DNA of 10,000 nucleotides from Magnetospirillum sp. (GTDB taxonomy: Bacteria; Pseudomonadota; Alphaproteobacteria; Rhodospirillales; Magnetospirillaceae): contig JAIWOG010000117.1 in assembly GCA_020217035.1 (NCBI GenBank), positions 1 to 10,000 of the forward strand. Reading direction: 5' to 3'. The notes under the pieces are model-generated. The model searched no databases and was not told where the DNA came from. It saw only the letters and a program-made list of their open reading frames with translations. Below, piece after piece: positions 1 to 8,104 of this stretch. How positions within the stretch are numbered: the first letter of the stretch is position 1; each line of letters begins with the position of its first letter. The translations under genes were made by a program, and so were the position numbers.

Positions 1-1
1 G

Positions 2-289
2 GTGGAGTGGACCGAGGGCGCCACTCATTACTTGGCGCTGCGCCGCCGGGACGGTGGGCTGGCCGGGCCGTTCCGGGTGGAGGCCGTGCCGGATGATCAC
101 GCCAAAGTCCGGGTCCTCGATCCCCTGACCGTCACCCCGTATGTCGGCGGCTCCGAGGAGCGGACGTATTTCAGCTTCGGCCCCGGCCAAGCCTGGGCGC
201 AGCCCGCCCGGGTGCTCGGCATCCGCCCCCGTGGTGGGCAGGTGGAAATCTCCGCCGTCGCCGAAGATTCCCGTGTGCATGTGAACTGA
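2..289 (+). CDS. Phage tail tip / host specificity protein J-like, C-terminal end (partial)
   Basis: This is an open frame running in from the left edge and ending with TGA at 287-289; only about 95 C-terminal residues are visible and the true start lies outside the window. The GTG at position 2 is just the first possible start in the frame. The block with YFSFGPGQAWAQPARVLGIR followed by PRGG, an EISAVAEDSRVHV-type segment and the end of the protein matches what I recall of the C-terminus of lambda gpJ-like tail tip proteins in alphaproteobacterial prophages. Those proteins sit at the tail tip and contact the host receptor. The two genes that follow are lysis-type genes, which fits the end of a siphophage late operon. 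The family call rests on remembered similarity; the J fibronectin-like domains that would confirm it are out of view. Confidence 0.7.
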   Translation: MEWTEGATHYLALRRRDGGLAGPFRVEAVPDDHAKVRVLDPLTVTPYVGGSEERTYFSFGPGQAWAQPARVLGIRPRGGQVEISAVAEDSRVHVN

Positions 290-352
290 TTGCGGGGCGC
301 TGCCCCGTGCCCCGCCAAAGGCCGAGAGGCCATTGGAACCCGATCCTTTTCT

Positions 353-378
353 GGCCGCCTATCCGGGCGGCCATTTTT
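353..378 (+). terminator. Intrinsic terminator between tail tip gene and lysis genes
   Basis: A perfect 7-bp GC stem, GGCCGCC (353-359) and GGCGGCC (366-372), is separated by a 6-nt loop and followed by TTTTT at 374-378. A T352-A373 pair can extend it. It lies 63 nt after the tail gene stop and ends only 14 nt before the ATG of the next gene, so it would reduce read-through into the lysis genes unless antitermination occurs. Confidence 0.65.
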
Positions 379-392
379 GTTGGAGACAGCCT

Positions 393-830
393 ATGACCAA
401 GACCTGCACCGTGCCGCGCGGTATCCGCCTGAACAATCCCGGCAACATCAAGGAATCGCCCGGCGACAAGACCCAATGGCAGGGCGAACGGGCCACCGAC
501 GACGATCCGGTGTTCGAGGAATTCGTCAGCCCCGAGGCTGGTATCCGGGCGCTGGCCCGCATCCTGGTCGGCTATCAGCACCGCTACGGCCTGAATACTG
601 TTGCCGGGATCATCAATCGCTGGGCGCCGGGCTGCGAAAACGATACCGGCGCCTATATCGCCCACGTCGCCTCCCGCCTCGGCGTGACGCCCGACCAGAC
701 CATCGACGTTACCCGGCCGGAGACCATGGCCGGTCTGGTGGAAGCCATCATCCGCCATGAAAACGGTCAGCAGCCCTATGCCCGCGAGGTGATCCTGGCC
801 GGTGTGGACATGGGGCTGGGGAGGGCCTGA
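393..830 (+). CDS. Phage 'structural protein P5'-type / putative lysin-associated protein
   Basis: The product is 145 residues. I start it at ATG 393, which has TTGGAGA about 6 nt upstream; an upstream TTG at 333 would put the terminator inside the coding sequence and adds residues unlike the family. The protein opens with RGIRLNNPGNI (residues 9-19), then FEEFVSPEAGIRAL (41-54), then INRWAPGCENDTGAYIAHV (74-92), and ends with a VEAIIRHENG helix. This pattern is typical of small phage/prophage proteins annotated as structural protein P5 or as virion-associated peptidoglycan-degrading proteins. I recognise the family, but I do not see a proven catalytic motif. It stands immediately before a holin-like gene (2-nt gap), which supports a role in lysis or cell-wall penetration. 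No signal peptide is evident, so export would depend on the holin or on virion packaging. Confidence 0.7.
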   Translation: MTKTCTVPRGIRLNNPGNIKESPGDKTQWQGERATDDDPVFEEFVSPEAGIRALARILVGYQHRYGLNTVAGIINRWAPGCENDTGAYIAHVASRLGVTPDQTIDVTRPETMAGLVEAIIRHENGQQPYAREVILAGVDMGLGRA

Positions 831-832
831 CC

Positions 833-1435
833 ATGAAGCTGCTCGATCTGCTGGGCGATGCTGCCGCCATCGCCGCCAATCCCGTGGTGGGGCTGGCCAA
901 GGTGGCGCTCGACGTCGCCCCCGACATCGCCGGCCTGTTCGGCGACGATGCCGAAAAGGCCGTCGGTAAGCTGGCCGACACCGTGCGTGCCGTCACCGGC
1001 ACCGACGATCCCGCCCAGGCCCGCGAAGCTTTGGCCGATCCCACTCTGGTGTTTCAGCTTCGCTCCCAGGCCCAAACCTTCGCCCACGAGGAGCGGATGC
1101 AGGAGATGGCCAATGCCGTCACCACGCTGACCGCGACCCTGACCGACCGCCAGAACGCCCGTGCCAGGGACAGCGAGTTCATCAAGGCCGGGCGGAGCAA
1201 CATCCGCGCCAACGTGCTGCTGGTGACGGCGGGGGCGGGTATCGTCGGCGGCATCGCCTTCATGGTGTTCGGCCACGTCGACGGCAACACCGCCGTCGGC
1301 GGCTGCATCATCTCGGTCGTGACCCTGCTGGCGGGCAAGTTCGCCACCGCCTTCGATTTCGAATTCGGTGGATCGGCGGACTCGGAGCAAACTCGTACCC
1401 TGTTGGCGCACGCATCACCGATCAATGGAAGATAA
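833..1435 (+). CDS. Holin, GTA/3TM-type family
   Basis: The product is 200 residues, starting at ATG 833, two bases after the preceding stop. A GGGGAGGG stretch inside the end of that gene can serve as ribosome binding site, so the two are probably translationally coupled. The N-terminal 120 residues are mostly helical and soluble: an amphipathic opening MKLLDLLGDAAAIAAN, then a charged middle part. Two clear hydrophobic segments follow at about 127-148 and 153-174, with a short polar C-terminal tail. This architecture fits the holin family known from gene transfer agents and alphaproteobacterial prophages (GTA_holin_3TM), which permeabilises the inner membrane so that the lysin reaches the wall. 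The third membrane segment of the family may be the weakly hydrophobic N-terminus. Its position after the P5-type gene and before a strong terminator marks the end of the late operon. Confidence 0.7.
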   Translation: MKLLDLLGDAAAIAANPVVGLAKVALDVAPDIAGLFGDDAEKAVGKLADTVRAVTGTDDPAQAREALADPTLVFQLRSQAQTFAHEERMQEMANAVTTLTATLTDRQNARARDSEFIKAGRSNIRANVLLVTAGAGIVGGIAFMVFGHVDGNTAVGGCIISVVTLLAGKFATAFDFEFGGSADSEQTRTLLAHASPINGR

Positions 1436-1453
1436 ATCAGAAAGCCAAGCCAT

Positions 1454-1489
1454 GCGGCCGACCGGGGGAAACCCTGGTCGGCCGCTTTT
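1454..1489 (+). terminator. Strong intrinsic terminator closing the prophage late operon
   Basis: A perfect 10-bp stem, GCGGCCGACC (1454-1463) with GGTCGGCCGC (1476-1485), extends inward by one G-T and three G-C pairs to a GAAA tetraloop at 1468-1471, giving 14 pairs. TTTT follows at 1486-1489. It begins 18 nt after the holin stop codon and is oriented for plus-strand transcription. Confidence 0.85.
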
Positions 1490-1498
1490 CGTGTTTCT

Positions 1499-1519
1499 GG
1501 CCTGCATATGTGGCAGGCC
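1499..1519. repeat. Short perfect inverted repeat in the prophage/module intergenic region
   Basis: GGCCTGC (1499-1505) is mirrored by GCAGGCC (1513-1519) around a 7-nt spacer. No T-run follows on either strand, so it is not a convincing terminator. It lies in the 202-nt non-coding stretch (1436-1637) where two operons converge. That stretch otherwise holds the terminator at 1454-1489 and a short direct repeat GGTCCCCG (1596-1603 and 1618-1625). An operator, a protein-binding site or chance are all possible. Confidence 0.35.
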
Positions 1520-1637
1520 GTTGATGGGCTCCGAACGGGACCGCCGCCATCCCCACCACCGCTCTCGATCCGTCCCGCGCGACGGCGTCTCCTGCGGTCC
1601 CCGCGCTTTCGGGTCCGGGTCCCCGTATCGCGGCTGT

Positions 1638-2546
1638 CTATTCCGTCGGCAGCGACGACATGTCGGCGGCCACGGTCTCGATGACCTTGCGCAGCCCCGT
1701 CATCAAGTCTCCGTGATGCTTATCCAGGTGGACGGAAATCTCGTCGTTGGCCAGCAGCTTGCCCAGGAAGCCCTTGGCCACCACCAGGGTCAGCATCGTA
1801 TCGCCGTAATCATCCTCGATCCGGCGATAATCCCGCTGGACGTTTTCCATCTCCCGCTCCATGCGGGCGATATCCTCGGGGGACACGCCGATCGAAGGCT
1901 TTGCCTTGGCGGGCTCGACCAGATCGTCGGGTTTGGTGGTCGCCAGGATCATTTTCGCGTAATTCTCGGTGCAGTGGTTGGCCGAGATCATCATTTCCGC
2001 CGCCGCGATCTGGCGAACCGGCTTCATCTTGCGCAAATGCTTGAAGATGGCCTGCCCAACCATCCGGTCCTTCAGAATTTCCACCACCTCGGGGGCGATG
2101 CCGTCAAGCAGGCGCTGGCGTTCTCTGATACGGTCCACGTTGACGTTCAGCGCCAGAGCGATCCGTTCCGGCGCCAGCCCTTTCTCGATGGCGCGGAGGA
2201 TCATCATGTGTTCCTGAACGGCGGACAGCCGACTGATTCGCTTGTTGTAGGTGAAACCTTCGTCGTCGGTGGAGACCAGGCAGACGGCTTCGGTGCCGCC
2301 CAGTTCCTTCAGGGCTTCCAGCCTCAGGTGCCCGTCCAGCAGGACATAAAGCCCGTTTTCCTCGGAGGCGGCTTTTTCCGGATGAACCGCCAGTGGCTCG
2401 ATGATTCCGACTTCTCGGATCGAGGCCAGAATGGTGCGATATTTCGGGCTCTTGCGGACGTCCTTGCTGACCTGCCGGGTCGGCAGGATCCGGTCGAGGG
2501 GCAACAGGATGGTGCCTCCCTCGAAGCCGCGATAGATGCCGCTCAT
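1638..2546 (-). CDS. ParB-like protein with RepB-type C-terminal domain
   Basis: The product is 302 residues. ATG at 2546 overlaps the stop of the upstream gene by 4 nt (ATGA) and has GGAGG 8 nt ahead. The N-terminal part resembles a ParB/Sulfiredoxin-like domain: ILLPLDRI (13-20), an IREVGIIEPLAVHP strand-helix region (43-56) and a ParB-box-like LLDGHLRLEALKELG (69-83). A helix-turn-helix-like region lies at about 125-148. The C-terminal half, with charged helices at about 222-245, looks like the RepB family of plasmid partition proteins. ParB proteins normally bind centromere-like DNA and load as CTP-dependent clamps. Here the usual ENxxR segment is replaced by NKRISRLSAVQEH (101-113), so standard CTPase function is doubtful. 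No ParA/RepA partner lies nearby. It is the last gene of the recombinase operon and probably works with it. Confidence 0.8.
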   Translation of the reverse strand: MSGIYRGFEGGTILLPLDRILPTRQVSKDVRKSPKYRTILASIREVGIIEPLAVHPEKAASEENGLYVLLDGHLRLEALKELGGTEAVCLVSTDDEGFTYNKRISRLSAVQEHMMILRAIEKGLAPERIALALNVNVDRIRERQRLLDGIAPEVVEILKDRMVGQAIFKHLRKMKPVRQIAAAEMMISANHCTENYAKMILATTKPDDLVEPAKAKPSIGVSPEDIARMEREMENVQRDYRRIEDDYGDTMLTLVVAKGFLGKLLANDEISVHLDKHHGDLMTGLRKVIETVAADMSSLPTE

Positions 2547-3445
2547 GGCCGGGCCTCCGCAGGCAAGCGATCCGCCAGGGTCTTGGGCATGTCGTGGATC
2601 CCCTCCGCCCGCAACAGGGTGCGGAAATGGTCGTCGGCCAGGAGCTTGCGCAAAGCGCTCAACACGAACACCAGACGCTGTTCGGCCATCTCGGCTTTCT
2701 TCACCATCAAGGTTTGCCGCCGCACCTCGGCCTGATAGGTCCGCAGCAGGTTCTTGGCGGACAGTTCCTTGGGCGTTTTCTTATCGTTCTTATTGAACCC
2801 CTTCCCCAAGGCCCGGCGGCGGTCCACCAGCTGGCGCACCCGGATGAACTGATCCCCGCGCAGGGTGCCGTCCTCGTAGGCCTGCATCAGGGTCGCCTGG
2901 ACATCCTGCCCTCCCGCCTTGGCGATCTCCGTCGCGATGTAGATGGGCAGCCATCCCTGTTCGACGGCATTGATCAGTCGCCCTTCGCCCGCTTTCAGCA
3001 AGGTCAGGATGCCGTGGACATAGGCCCGGTCGACGCCGATCTTTTCGGCGATCCGCGAGGTGTTGTAGCCCCGCTCATCGAGGATACGGACGGCCTGAAG
3101 CAGGTCGCTGCTGGAATGCTGGCGGCGAGCCAGATTTTCCACCAGGCTCATCAGGAAGAGTTCCGCCTCGGGGACCGAAATGATGGCGGCCGGGATTTCC
3201 GTTTCGCCCAGAACCTGGAATGCCTCGATCCGCCCCTGGCCGCAGACCAGATGATAGATCGGTCCACCGTCGTCATTTCCCGCATGGGTGACCGTGATCG
3301 GGCGTTTCAATCCGACGCGCGCGATGTTTTCGACAATGCTGGCGAAGACCTTCTTCGAGCGGCTGCGCGGGTTGAGGATGCGGATGCGGTCGATGGGAAT
3401 GGAGCGGATTTCCTCCGGTCCGGCGACATGATGATCTGGTGGCAT
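2543..3445 (-). CDS. ParB N-terminal domain protein (partition-like DNA-binding protein)
   Basis: The product is 300 residues. The frame is open well upstream inside the recombinase gene, but the real start is ATG 3445: it overlaps the recombinase stop by one base (TGATG) and is preceded by GGAGG, and the upstream extension is only the recombinase read in another frame. The ParB-type N-terminal domain shows IPIDRIRILNPR (16-27), GLKRPITV (45-52), the ParB box GQGRIEAF (69-76) and ENLARRQH (103-110), which corresponds to the ENxxR nucleotide-binding motif. A helix-turn-helix follows at about 127-150 (YNTSRIAEKIGVDRAYVHGI). The C-terminal part is basic with a KNDKK patch near 219-223 and long helices, perhaps a dimerisation or spreading region. 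It therefore looks more canonical than its downstream neighbour. The close coupling to a recombinase suggests a DNA-bridging or recombination-site role instead of ordinary segregation; this is inference. Confidence 0.82.
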   Translation of the reverse strand: MPPDHHVAGPEEIRSIPIDRIRILNPRSRSKKVFASIVENIARVGLKRPITVTHAGNDDGGPIYHLVCGQGRIEAFQVLGETEIPAAIISVPEAELFLMSLVENLARRQHSSSDLLQAVRILDERGYNTSRIAEKIGVDRAYVHGILTLLKAGEGRLINAVEQGWLPIYIATEIAKAGGQDVQATLMQAYEDGTLRGDQFIRVRQLVDRRRALGKGFNKNDKKTPKELSAKNLLRTYQAEVRRQTLMVKKAEMAEQRLVFVLSALRKLLADDHFRTLLRAEGIHDMPKTLADRLPAEARP

Positions 3446-5016
3446 CAGGCGACCTCCCTCAGGCTGACGCGCCGGGCCAATCCGTAAAGCGCGTCCAGGG
3501 TATCGTGGCGATATGCGTCGAGACCGGCGGCGTTGCGCTCGGCCAGACGCATCCGGGATACGCTCATGTCCAGGGCCGGTAGCAGGTAATAATCCTGCAC
3601 GGCCTCGTTGCCAGCGGCCATGCGCACCGCAACGGTGATGTCCGGGCACAGGACCGTATCGAAGCGAACCACCCAGCGCCGGGCACCCGCGGAAGTCTCC
3701 TGGCATCGGCTCAACACCAGGGAGACGGTGAATTCCCGGTTGACCGTCAGCAGGTCCGTCGCAGGATCAGTGAAAACCTCTCCGCCAATCTCGCGGATAC
3801 GCTCGACGGTCTCGGCTACCAGGCGGGGATGCATCGCACGCAGGCCACGGTTGATCTCCAGCATCCGGCAGGCCTGCTCCGGCCAGTAGCCGATCAGGAC
3901 ATAAGCCCGGGTCAGGCTGCCGAACCGGCTGCGAAAGGCCCCGCTGGAGGGCATGCTGTCGCATTCATCGATAATCAGGCCCGACAGACATCCCCGCTCA
4001 TGGAGCAAGGCATTCAGGGCGGCCAGCATCTCTTCGTCGCTCAACCGGACGGAACGATGGCGGATGATGGCCTGGGCGGCATCGAACAGAGCTTGGTCAA
4101 CGATCGGCGTGAACGCCCTGTCGGCCCGGATCCAATCCTCGGGGGCGTTGATGGTCCGCTGTTGCTTCAGCTTGAAGGAACGGCGGTTCCAGACATTATT
4201 CCCGACATATTTCTCGTTAATCAGCACCTGATGGACGGTCCCCCGCGTCCAGGGGCGGCCGAAATCGGTGCGGATGCCTCTGCCGTTGAGCCGCCCGGCG
4301 ATTTCCCGCTCGCTTCGCCCGTCCTCGACGAAGGCGCGGAACATCCAGTTGACGGTCTCGATTTCCTCGGGCGGTCCCGGCACCAGAATGACCCGGTCGG
4401 TCTGGATGCTTTTCTGCTCGCCGCGGGCAAGTTCCTCCTTGGGCATGCCGGTATGGTCGATCAGTTGACGGCGCAGCCCGAACCCGGCGGGGCCGCCCTG
4501 GCGGTACCCCAACCCGATCAAACGCCGTTGGCCGGTGAACACCTTGACCGACAATTCACGGGGATATTCCCCCGCCATCATCCGCTTCAGCGCCTTGATG
4601 ATGTGGGAGAAGGGGCTGCCGTCATTGCCGAATTGCTCGGCGCAGTAATGCACCTTGATACCGGCGATATCGCAGCAGAGTTCGTAATAGGCCCCCTCGT
4701 CGGGGTTCTGGAAGCGCCCCCAGCGGCTGACGTCGTAGACGAGAACGGCGGAAAAGTCCGCCTGACCACTCCTTACATCATGCAGCAATTGCTGCAACGC
4801 CTTGCGCCCGTCCAGACGCAGACCGCTTTTGCCTTCGTCGGCATAGGTGCGGACGATCTCGAAGCCATGGTCATCGGCATATTGCCGGATGGCGTCGCTT
4901 TGATTTTCCGTCGAATATTGCTGATGCTCGGTGGACATGCGCACATATTGGGCCGCGCGCATCCGCCCCTGCGGGGCGGCGCCTGTTTCGCCCTTATGTC
5001 CGGTTCCGTTGTCCAC
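3445..5016 (-). CDS. Large serine recombinase (resolvase/invertase catalytic domain plus recombinase domain)
   Basis: The product is 523 residues from GTG 5016; ATG 4962 (505 residues) is the alternative and starts just before the conserved domain. The resolvase fold is clear: YVRMSTEHQQYSTENQ with R26 and catalytic S28, YADEGKSG (58-65), and YDVSRWGR (94-101) supplying the active-site Asp and Arg residues. A recombinase domain follows at about 165-275, including GYRQGGPAGFGLRR, RPWTRGTVHQVL and NEKYVGNN. The segment where a zinc ribbon usually sits (about 338-378) has only C343 and C352, so no four-cysteine site is visible. The C-terminal 120 residues lack the usual long coiled coil. Such enzymes cut and rejoin DNA at specific sites through a phosphoserine intermediate. 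It heads a three-gene overlapping operon with two ParB-like proteins. I recall this combination from rhizobial and related genomes. Confidence 0.93.
   Translation of the reverse strand: MDNGTGHKGETGAAPQGRMRAAQYVRMSTEHQQYSTENQSDAIRQYADDHGFEIVRTYADEGKSGLRLDGRKALQQLLHDVRSGQADFSAVLVYDVSRWGRFQNPDEGAYYELCCDIAGIKVHYCAEQFGNDGSPFSHIIKALKRMMAGEYPRELSVKVFTGQRRLIGLGYRQGGPAGFGLRRQLIDHTGMPKEELARGEQKSIQTDRVILVPGPPEEIETVNWMFRAFVEDGRSEREIAGRLNGRGIRTDFGRPWTRGTVHQVLINEKYVGNNVWNRRSFKLKQQRTINAPEDWIRADRAFTPIVDQALFDAAQAIIRHRSVRLSDEEMLAALNALLHERGCLSGLIIDECDSMPSSGAFRSRFGSLTRAYVLIGYWPEQACRMLEINRGLRAMHPRLVAETVERIREIGGEVFTDPATDLLTVNREFTVSLVLSRCQETSAGARRWVVRFDTVLCPDITVAVRMAAGNEAVQDYYLLPALDMSVSRMRLAERNAAGLDAYRHDTLDALYGLARRVSLREVA
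4963..4979 (-). promoter_or_regulatory. Hairpin abutting the alternative recombinase start
   Basis: CCGCCCC (4963-4969) and GGGGCGG (4973-4979) form a perfect 7-bp stem around a 3-nt loop, ending one base before ATG 4962 on the minus strand. If translation begins at that ATG, the only G-rich ribosome binding sequence is locked in the stem. If it begins at GTG 5016, the hairpin is inside the coding region. The structure is seen; a regulatory role is inference. Confidence 0.35.
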
Positions 5017-5115
5017 CGATCCGCCGTCCCCCGCGACTCTTCGATTCCCGGCGGTTCGGCCTGATTTGGAACATCCGGATTACTGGTCCGGCGTCCCCCC
5101 TCTCCGCGCCATCAT

Positions 5116-5132
5116 TCAACCATAACGGTTGA
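5116..5132 (+). promoter_or_regulatory. Candidate operator: inverted repeat before the small HTH gene
   Basis: TCAACC (5116-5121) and GGTTGA (5127-5132) form a perfect 6-bp inverted repeat with a 5-nt spacer. Its right arm overlaps the first two bases of the GAGGAG ribosome binding site at 5131-5136. It lies in the roughly 127-nt region between the divergent recombinase and HTH genes. That position suits an autoregulatory operator or a recombinase/ParB site. I found no convincing -35/-10 pair there. Confidence 0.4.
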
Positions 5133-5143
5133 GGAGCGGAAAA

Positions 5144-5509
5144 ATGTTGCTGAAAAAGGGCAAGACTTTTCCGGGCGGCAATGAACAGCCTCCAGGCGAG
5201 ACAGATTACGCAGGGATGATCTCTCTGGCATTGCAGAAGCAGCTTGGAACCAGCCATCAGGCCATCAAGACAGCGATGCGCTGGACCGGGGCAGGAGAAA
5301 GAACCGTGAAGAACTGGTTCTCCGGTGCCCATGGTCCCAGCGGGGAGCACCTGATCGCGCTGGCGAGGCATTCGGACGAGGTTCTGAATATATTCTTGAT
5401 GATGGCTGATCGGCGGATAGCAGTTGCCAGGATAAAGATCGCAGAGGCCCGAACCAAACTGGCCGATGATTTGGAGACCGTCGAAATGCTATTGGCTGAC
5501 GGGACCTGA
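5144..5509 (+). CDS. Small helix-turn-helix DNA-binding protein of the recombinase module
   Basis: The product is 121 residues from ATG 5144, chosen because GAGGAG (5131-5136) sits 7 nt upstream; a TTG at 5129 overlaps that site and is not a credible start. A helix-turn-helix-like region spans about 38-60 (HQAIKTAMRWTGAGERTVKNWFSG), followed by GPSGEHLIALARHSDEVL (64-81) and a charged C-terminal helix with heptad-like spacing (about 88-117) that could dimerise. I remember similar short proteins beside this recombinase/ParB module in other alphaproteobacteria, but know no experimental function. Divergent transcription from the recombinase operon and the inverted repeat overlapping its ribosome binding site suggest a repressor of itself or of the recombinase. 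GC content here is clearly below that of the mod genes, in keeping with acquired DNA. Confidence 0.72.
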   Translation: MLLKKGKTFPGGNEQPPGETDYAGMISLALQKQLGTSHQAIKTAMRWTGAGERTVKNWFSGAHGPSGEHLIALARHSDEVLNIFLMMADRRIAVARIKIAEARTKLADDLETVEMLLADGT

Positions 5510-5521
5510 AATGTTCCGTCG

Positions 5522-5788
5522 ATGCTGCACTACCTTGCCGGAATACTGGACGTCTTCATCAGCTTTTTCTTCGATGACCTGCCCGAAGGAATAAAACATC
5601 CTCCACCGCCCCCCGAGAACCACATGATACGGAGGGAATCCCTGGACTTGATGAAATACTACTACCGCATCCCCGACGAGCCACGGCGGCAGGTCTACGA
5701 GTTGGTGCGGGCGATGGGACGGAAGGAATGGGCTAAGGATGAATGCGTAGAAATGCACCCGGCACTCAACCATGTCTCCAGACCTTGA
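5522..5788 (+). CDS. Unrecognised 88-residue protein, overlapping the end of the TauE-family gene
   Basis: I do not recognise this protein. ATG 5522 lies 12 nt after the HTH gene stop but has no good ribosome binding site; ATG 5624 or ATG 5651 (GGAGGG 14 nt ahead) would give shorter products. The N-terminus is hydrophobic (MLHYLAGILDVFISFFF, 1-17), then a proline run at 27-31, then a charged helical part with KYYYRIPDEPRRQVYELVRAMG (45-66). The last 23 bases overlap the convergent permease gene, so the C-terminal tail may be accidental and the original end lost. The segment MKYYYRIPDEPRRQVYELV looks protein-like and may belong with the HTH gene in one small operon. GC is about 48% in the first line, low for this window. 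It could be a decayed or truncated gene. Confidence 0.35.
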   Translation: MLHYLAGILDVFISFFFDDLPEGIKHPPPPPENHMIRRESLDLMKYYYRIPDEPRRQVYELVRAMGRKEWAKDECVEMHPALNHVSRP

Positions 5789-6973: not shown

Positions 6974-8104
6974 TTAATCTTCCTTCAGCAGGTGTATCCC
7001 CTCGGCCCGCAGGGTCAGGGTGACTTCGGCGCCCGGCTTCAACCCATTACGCTGGGCCACATGCAGCAGCACCGGCATGACGATGGACGCCCCGCATGTG
7101 CCGATGGCGACTTCCACACGGACGGTTTCACCGAGCGCGAGCATGTCGGTGATCACGCCCTCGACCGGATTCTCGGCATCACCCCGCGAAGGGCGGTTTG
7201 GGGGGTGAAGCAGGACGTGAGAGGCCGGGATGCACCAGGAGACTTTGGCGGAGAGCGGGAATTCAGGGCGCAGACGGCTGCTGAAGGTGTGCCCCTGCCA
7301 GCCCAGGTAAGTGACGCCCTCACCTTCGTCGTGCCCCAGCACGACGCCCTCGAAGATGTTGCGGATGTCCACCAGCCGGGCCACGGCAACCGTGTCGGGC
7401 CTCGTCTTGACATCCATCGGCGCACCGGTCTGAAGCGTCTTTCCCCGGTGGAGGATGCAGAGCGTGTCAGCCAGGATCGCCGCCTCTTCCAGGTCATGGG
7501 TGACCAGCAGCGTCGGCATCTTCAGTTCCCGGCGCAGTTCCGCCAGTTCGACGTAGAGGCGCTGTCGGGTGGCACGATCCACCGCCGAGAACGGTTCATC
7601 CAGCAGCAGCACCTTCGGGTCGCGGGCCAGGGCGCGGGCGACGGCCACGCGCTGCTGCTGGCCGCCCGACAAGGCCGCCGGATAGCGGTCCTCCAGCCCA
7701 TCGAGATGCACCTTCGCCAGCAGGTCGAGCGCCCGCTTCCGCCGCTCCGTTTCCGTCATGTGCCCCATGGCCGCCATGACGTTGCCGAGCGCCGTCATGT
7801 GGGGGAACAGGGCGTAGCTCTGGAACACCATGCCGACTTCGCGCCGCTGCGGTGCCAGACACACCTTGCGCGCTGCGTCGAACCACGCCCGCCCATCGCA
7901 GGTGACCATCCCAGCCCCCGGCTGGTACAGACCGGCGACCGACCGCAGCACGGTGGATTTGCCGCTGCCCGAAGGTCCGACCAGGGCCAACACCTCGCCG
8001 GGACGGCAGACAAGCTCGGCGTCCAGCGGGATAGGGGCATCCTGGCGCAACCGCACCGTCAGGCCGGTATCAGCGGATAACGCGGGCACGGTTTGTAAGA
8101 ACAT
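6974..8104 (-). CDS. modC: Molybdate ABC transporter ATP-binding protein ModC
   Basis: The product is 376 residues from ATG 8104, overlapping the end of modB by 35 nt; the frame stays open further upstream inside modB, but those residues are not protein-like. No strong ribosome binding site precedes it, so translational coupling to modB is likely, and GTG 8089 is an alternative start. ABC ATPase motifs are complete: Walker A GPSGSGKST (43-51), Q-loop Q95 in FQSYALFPH, signature LSGGQQQRVAVARAL (145-159), Walker B KVLLLDEPF (164-172) with catalytic E170, and H-loop H203. A C-terminal regulatory region (about 235-372) with a TOBE-like part (GVITDMLALGETVRVEVAIG) matches ModC/CysA-type ATPases. 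It hydrolyses ATP on the cytoplasmic side to drive uptake through ModB. Adjacent modB and modA support molybdate or tungstate over sulfate. Confidence 0.88.
   Translation of the reverse strand: MFLQTVPALSADTGLTVRLRQDAPIPLDAELVCRPGEVLALVGPSGSGKSTVLRSVAGLYQPGAGMVTCDGRAWFDAARKVCLAPQRREVGMVFQSYALFPHMTALGNVMAAMGHMTETERRKRALDLLAKVHLDGLEDRYPAALSGGQQQRVAVARALARDPKVLLLDEPFSAVDRATRQRLYVELAELRRELKMPTLLVTHDLEEAAILADTLCILHRGKTLQTGAPMDVKTRPDTVAVARLVDIRNIFEGVVLGHDEGEGVTYLGWQGHTFSSRLRPEFPLSAKVSWCIPASHVLLHPPNRPSRGDAENPVEGVITDMLALGETVRVEVAIGTCGASIVMPVLLHVAQRNGLKPGAEVTLTLRAEGIHLLKED

Follow-up and report, generated by a model that had tools for sequence, protein, structure and literature searches.

A ParA-less unit of a large serine recombinase and two ParB-like proteins recurs as cargo of mobile elements and may act in defence

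We analysed a 10,000-base stretch of Magnetospirillum sp. DNA (assembly GCA_020217035.1, contig JAIWOG010000117.1; hereafter the window), which is the entire contig, with any sequence past either end unreadable, and which carries on its minus strand three overlapping genes coding for a large serine recombinase and two ParB-like proteins, ParB1 and ParB2. Together with a divergent gene for a helix-turn-helix (HTH)-like regulator, this trio looks mostly like an accessory cassette of prophages, Tn7-like transposons, plasmids and integrative islands. With a rough probability of 0.4, we propose that the unit acts against competing mobile DNA as an uncharacterised defence-type module of recombinase and clamps, because it shares a genomic slot with anti-phage systems in one island family, pairs two clamp-fold proteins with a serine recombinase whose active site is intact, and has no ParA in the stretches examined. 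The observed basis of this proposal also includes the conservation of the unit and its location as cargo.

Recurrence of the unit

The recombinase gene (3445..5016, minus strand; 523 aa) starts with GTG and has its TGA stop at 3447-3445, overlapping by 1 nt the ParB1 gene (2543..3445, minus strand; 300 aa), whose ATG lies at 3445 and whose product combines ParB_N with RepB_C. This gene in turn shares an ATGA, an overlap of 4 nt, with that of ParB2 (1638..2546, minus strand; 302 aa), in which a ParB-like N part is joined to RepB_C. An earlier note on this DNA, made from its letters, had the coordinates, strand and both overlaps correct base by base. The divergent HTH-like gene (5129..5509, plus strand; 126 aa; phrog_23106, 9.8e-6) usually completes the unit as its fourth gene. 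In Pfam, the recombinase matched Resolvase (4.7e-22) and Recombinase (9.4e-25), ParB1 matched ParB_N (3.7e-7) and RepB (2.2e-17), and ParB2 matched RepB (7.5e-37), with ParB_N under its cut-off; the two RepB hits in the window are the only matches to PF07506 in the host genome.

Our sample comprised 131 loci including the window, drawn from named genomes (80), viral contigs (29), Pseudomonas stretches (8), annotated plasmid regions and 1 unannotated phage record. ParB2 DNA was distinct in 124 of them, and 112 of these had at least 2.7 kb of upstream sequence; the 12 loci with a short upstream part were left out of the count that follows. The recombinase and ParB1 lay upstream of ParB2 on the same strand in 106 of the 112 distinct loci, indicating that the arrangement is not due to chance, and the ordered trio is thus conserved outside the Magnetospirillum genome. 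At the other six loci (L037, L043, L052, L059, L080 and L127) we failed to find one or both partners, and what remains looks like a decayed unit. Among the 106 trios, recombinase and ParB1 overlap by 4 nt in 57 and by 1 nt in 29, and ParB1 and ParB2 by 4 nt in 64 and by 1 nt in 14. A relative of the divergent HTH-like gene was present in 82 of the 104 complete trios that had 4 kb of upstream sequence.

The earlier note described the trio as recurrent in other alphaproteobacteria; the recurrence holds and extends beyond that class: hosts include Alpha-, Beta- and Gammaproteobacteria as well as metagenome-assembled genomes labelled Pirellulales, Bryobacterales and Anammoximicrobium. Among the best 7,999 candidates scored, 6,064 were ParB2 relatives; where these have been named, the name is mostly that of a partitioning protein of plasmids or chromosomes. 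The full unit was found in 16 of 398 Pseudomonas genomes, one copy each and patchily distributed, in a count that used a query from one unit and a match list read by eye, so that it may overlook divergent units. In S. stutzeri A563/77 there are two units, which are divergent from each other. Two divergent units also occur in L102 and L119, viral records under one genome number (IMG genome 2534681903). Full-text searches of open-licence papers returned no publication recognisable as describing the trio.

Absence of ParA from the surroundings of the unit

No ParA or rep family was among the matches of those window proteins that were scanned. With seven ParA-family proteins of the host genome as queries, the 9,719 open reading frames (ORFs) of 130 loci gave 0 matches at E 1e-4, and a relaxed search of these loci gave a best E of 0.068, without a P-loop; as a control, a plasmid ParA was recognised at 3.6e-11 in a one-protein database. 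For 11 of the 12 annotated plasmid regions, whose gene tables are incomplete, the stretch examined contained no ParA-labelled gene. The exception was a 30-kb circular Paraburkholderia plasmid with its own rep and ParA just outside the stretch; counted across the start of the record, some 6 kb separate this ParA from the unit. Genes labelled AAA ATPase, ParB and replication initiator also occur on the Sphingobium plasmid pMSHV, at a distance of 200 kb from the unit. The ParA-type ATPase beside ParB that marks membership in ParABS or RepABC was not found in the stretches examined. The earlier description of a trio without ParA is therefore borne out in the stretches of the 130 loci, weak matches included, and the parA/rep locus consistently next door that would have spoken against it did not occur.

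A Pseudomonas slot shared with anti-phage systems

In the Pseudomonas locus L047, from P. wadenswilerensis, the unit lies alone between backbone edges near 6983 and 11098, and its joined flanks were sought in the 398 Pseudomonas genomes. Both flanks were found at most 30 kb apart on one contig in 7 genomes, 6 of which lack the unit; in G237 the slot holds the unit and a CAP12-type TIR protein. PADLOC matches occurred in 4 of the 6 unit-less slots (among the 14 ORFs scanned in those four): a HORMA/TRIP13 CBASS with CapP, PD-Lambda-2_C with cll, viperin with Hp1/Hp2, and a GajB-like helicase, the weakest of the four cases. We consider the slot a likely defence hotspot. The search gave filled slots and no empty one.

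This variable slot, bounded by two conserved small genes, was seen in L047 (6983-11098), L269-L272 and L277. A 71-aa-type protein (NQLALEAA.MELTLWVEQRG) occurs on differing sides of the unit in Pseudomonas, at 6641-6856 in L044 and downstream of ParB2 in L049, L051, L052, L056 and L106.

Predicted architecture of the proteins

The recombinase consists of a catalytic domain (residues about 20-147), a recombinase domain (about 216-321), an unrecognised middle part and a C-terminal domain (about 391-519), and thus has both the serine recombinase catalytic domain and the following Recombinase domain of a large serine integrase. The active-site residues S28, R26, R98, R101 and R153, and D459 and D475 of the C-terminal domain, are invariant in 105 of 105 aligned recombinases; judged from these alignments, the serine active site is intact. 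The predicted model of the C-terminal domain resembles PD-(D/E)xK nucleases in structure comparison, suggesting a nuclease-like fold that keeps D459 and D475 but lacks the complete D...(D/E)xK catalytic set, there being no lysine: the position of the K (Y477) is occupied by Y in 98, F in 6 and L in 1 of the 105 proteins. This C-terminal domain sets the protein apart from the large serine integrases SPbeta YokA/SprA, phiC31, Bxb1 and A118, as do the two ParB-like partners in its operon and the lack of any att site found. In the predicted model, structural matches to integrases end by residue 325, except for two rows reaching 354, and no helix longer than 16 residues follows residue 326, so that the integrase-type coiled coil seems to be absent beyond that point. 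VIA-align listed no integrase zinc-ribbon or coiled-coil match, which is an absence from a list and not a test.

A ParB CTPase-type N domain plus an HTH, as expected of the ParBs of ParABS or RepABC partition, was recognised from fold and sequence. ParB1 retains C-G-Q-G-R and E-N-x-A-R-R motifs. The canonical ParB motif is GxRR; the corresponding motif of ParB2 is altered to L-L-D-G-H-x-R, D-G-H-x-R replacing the GxRR of the ParB/Noc/KorB CTPase clamps and of RepB from RepABC. The unit further differs from those systems by the missing ParA and by its two paralogues in fixed order. Both proteins resemble CTP-clamp ParBs in sequence and predicted fold.

Borders of the unit and recombination as an alternative role

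The main rival to a defensive role is a self-serving recombination module, which would insert or excise the unit or adjoining cargo with the ParBs aiding synapsis, and would hitch-hike in cargo slots; we regard it as somewhat less likely than defence. The invariant serine active site is consistent with such a module, and so are sharp borders: in several pairs at 81-95% identity, the common DNA is confined to the unit and the flanks are unrelated, although recombinase-free cassettes may show equally sharp borders. L044 and L202 are 94% identical and share much of their surroundings; beyond the ParB2 stop of L202, other genes amounting to 2.7 kb are inserted between +25 and +42, and L044 has a different 2.6 kb left of the unit. 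These insertions next to the unit point the same way, as do the AbiE and Fic cassettes that directly flank the unit of pAtC58 and that both exist elsewhere without it.

We compared left and right flanks for terminal repeats, with mispaired controls, in 74 loci. Repeats above control flanked the unit in 8 of them (L014, L039, L051, L053, L054, L058, L061 and L064) and were marginal in L070 and its duplicate L109. They favour a recombination module where they occur; as general ends of the unit they were rejected, since sequence, place and orientation differ between groups (L014, L039, L051, L053, L061 and L064). The lack of general terminal repeats argues against the module, as does the failure to recover an empty site; moreover, the 16 unit-bearing Pseudomonas genomes have single copies with no near-identical second one, and the S. 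stutzeri pair is divergent. An IS-like transposon was rejected on the repeats in just 8 of 74 loci and the single copies. No recombination site for the recombinase, att included, was found, and the suggestion in the earlier note that ParB-like clamps choose or bridge such sites gained no support. Its other suggestion, a mobile element guarding its own copy, is not supported, given the single copies (16 of 398 Pseudomonas genomes), the failure to find general terminal repeats and the presence of units inside other elements.

A Fic-family cluster (by reading; annotated Fic in L016) recurs beside the unit, on either side by group: left of hth in L083, L085, L111, L113, L115, L120 and others, and right of ParB2 in L016 and L031.

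Plasmid and transposon settings

Resolution of dimers or cointegrates of plasmids and of Tn7/Tn5053-like elements, by a serine resolvase with ParB-like clamps, is an improbable function of the unit. TnsA/TniB/TniQ-type genes (Tn7-like or Tn5053-like) lie beside it on two annotated plasmids, such genes also lie beside several Pseudomonas chromosomal units (gene clusters read by eye), and ParB2 relatives are found in 104 plasmid records; together with the ParB folds and the resolvase catalytic domain, these settings would suit a maintenance role. However, the unit occurs frequently in phage records and in islands of chromosomes too, where dimer resolution is unneeded, and neither a ParA in the stretches examined nor a general repeat pair accompanies it.

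Restriction, Abi, Dnd or toxin-antitoxin labels were present near the unit in 8 of the 12 annotated plasmid regions, L243 and L244 sharing one context, and were absent from 6 comparison regions 130-220 kb off on the same plasmids, although mobile mystery A/B is present in one of the six and an HNH endonuclease in another; this comparison is small, read by hand and made on stretches of unequal length.

Phage settings

In 11 of 12 viral records of at least 35 kb, the start of ParB2 lies at most 6 kb from the record edge with the hth side outward, and the unit is cut or decayed in 6 of those 11 (L101, L103, L105, L114, L119 and L127). No tyrosine integrase match was found in 14 of 20 unit-bearing phage records. 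The Magnetospirillum-type records G463, G465, G476 and G480 have a DUF2924-type serine recombinase at the end opposite the unit; in G476 the trio is complete, with its hth side truncated where the record stops; in G463 the trio itself is truncated in this way, and in G465 and G480 it is decayed. P. caucaseum has a complete unit and a tRNA-Met half with a tyrosine integrase between them. Since these integrases indicate that another enzyme can integrate such phages, the unit looks like edge cargo. That the trio is the integrase of the prophage in the window, in which case attR would directly adjoin the hth gene on its right, is therefore very doubtful: the edge positions and the records without a tyrosine integrase favour it, but viral-record edges were possibly trimmed by software, and the serine recombinases of the four Magnetospirillum-type records (only G476 of them with a complete unit) and the tyrosine integrase of P. 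caucaseum stand against it.

A module of DUF2924, serine recombinase and a 130-aa ORF is present opposite the unit end in L099 (4426-6631) and in L251-L254, and in L099 it adjoins type I restriction-type genes (by eye reading). The edges of Rhodobacteraceae phages carry tRNA-Met 3' halves or whole genes. In the L069-L121 group, tRNA-Met(CAT) genes or 3' halves lie at prophage edges, about -4240 to -4640 from the ParB2 start, and in L085 a tRNA-Met(CAT) directly follows the 5S rRNA end (by eye reading). Tandem elements possibly use the same tRNA-Met(CAT) site. This tRNA is a candidate target of the unit itself, but tyrosine integrases are found at sites of that type too; moreover, Paracoccus S1E-3 has an uninterrupted tRNA, and at the far end we found no repeat exceeding 17 bases.

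The remainder of the window

Downstream of the trio, the window contains the end of a phage late region (2..1435, plus strand) with the end of tail J, an endolysin-like protein and a PHROG 1544 protein of unknown function (phrog_469, phrog_873, phrog_1544, NF040662). Between this region and ParB2 is a structured RNA-like element of about 100 nt (1523..1624, minus strand), recognised by an nhmmer profile and covariation. Its identity is 82-94% across loci whose genes are near 70%, and single-base length changes indicate that it is not coding. In each of 94 stretches the profile matched once; two of these matches are weak, and some records contributed several stretches. In an alignment of 31 sequences (A2), 28 pairs were predicted, 13 with changes on both sides; the pairing score was reached in 0 of 500 shuffles, all five measures exceeded at least 499 of 500, and sliding the partner abolished the pairing. 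By our own count, G-U outnumber A-C pairs about 67 to 9, which suggests that the element is probably an RNA transcribed in the ParB2 direction. It had no match in Rfam 15. Because it ends the late regions of alphaproteobacterial phages whether or not they carry the unit, we assign it to the phage and not to the trio. An attP or attC-like repeat was considered and rejected: the element is single per stretch, unbroken in presumed integrated prophages, and also found in unit-less phages with host-type genes just beyond (by eye).

On the other side of the trio, DNA identity to the closest phage contig, L099, extends from 1 to 5463 (blastn). Right of the junction zone, a TauE gene and then an ABC transporter ATP-binding gene and other host-type genes follow, two further ones being modB and modA by eye reading. 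As the L099 identity stops at 5463 and host-type genes follow, the junction of prophage and host is probably at about 5463-5766. For the insertion site of the window itself, relatives have little in common beyond the TauE gene.

Discussion

If the unit acts against competing mobile DNA, a new type of defence is conceivable, and we advance it more tentatively than the general proposal. The two ParB-like proteins would load onto target DNA as CTP-type clamps and so mark invading or competing DNA; the loaded clamps would recruit or license the serine recombinase with its nuclease-like C-terminal fold, whose action might be to cut or rearrange either the invader or the carrier of the unit. Clamp loading, choice of target, the cutting of DNA and the defensive purpose are inferred.

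Several points weigh against a defensive role. Recombinases in defence islands are often merely mobility genes. The slot test depends on one island family, and for 2 of the 6 slots without the unit, 21 and 25 kb in length, a scan of 10 of the 56 ORFs listed produced no PADLOC match. PADLOC (2023) models match no gene of the unit at E up to 1, and neither of two proteins adjoining the unit in L044 has a defence match. With Y477 in place of the K of PD-(D/E)xK, the C-terminal domain may be DNA-binding only, and sequence searches give the nuclease assignment no backing. In the related pairs L014/L058, L041/L042, L206/L207 and L211/L212, the flanks are shared as well as the unit. The unit resembles defence-island cargo such as CBASS, PD-Lambda-2, Gabija-like systems and viperin in occupying the same slot, in that one island family, and in being patchy with one copy per Pseudomonas genome; it differs in that no component matches PADLOC models, and any effector or activity is putative.

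Among published elements, a cluster of 11 serine recombinases without known integration site has been described in the Paracoccus virome (PMC6536676). As far as the part of that source available to us goes, these prophages are similar in being alphaproteobacterial siphoviruses with a serine recombinase lacking an identified site, and their recombinases may overlap with the family of the unit; the same part names no ParB-like neighbour genes.

Genes of the ParB2 type are usually named partitioning proteins, but the ParA-less gene order seen here suggests a different function. Should the unit defend its carrier, immunity by recombinase plus clamp would be undescribed in the open-licence literature searched, and would explain a recombinase in a slot used by CBASS. 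A role in moving cargo would instead reveal how cassettes of defence genes come together. The system is compact and testable in laboratory Pseudomonas or E. coli, and the search for DNA-writing tools gives recombinases that have new targeting partners an interest of their own.

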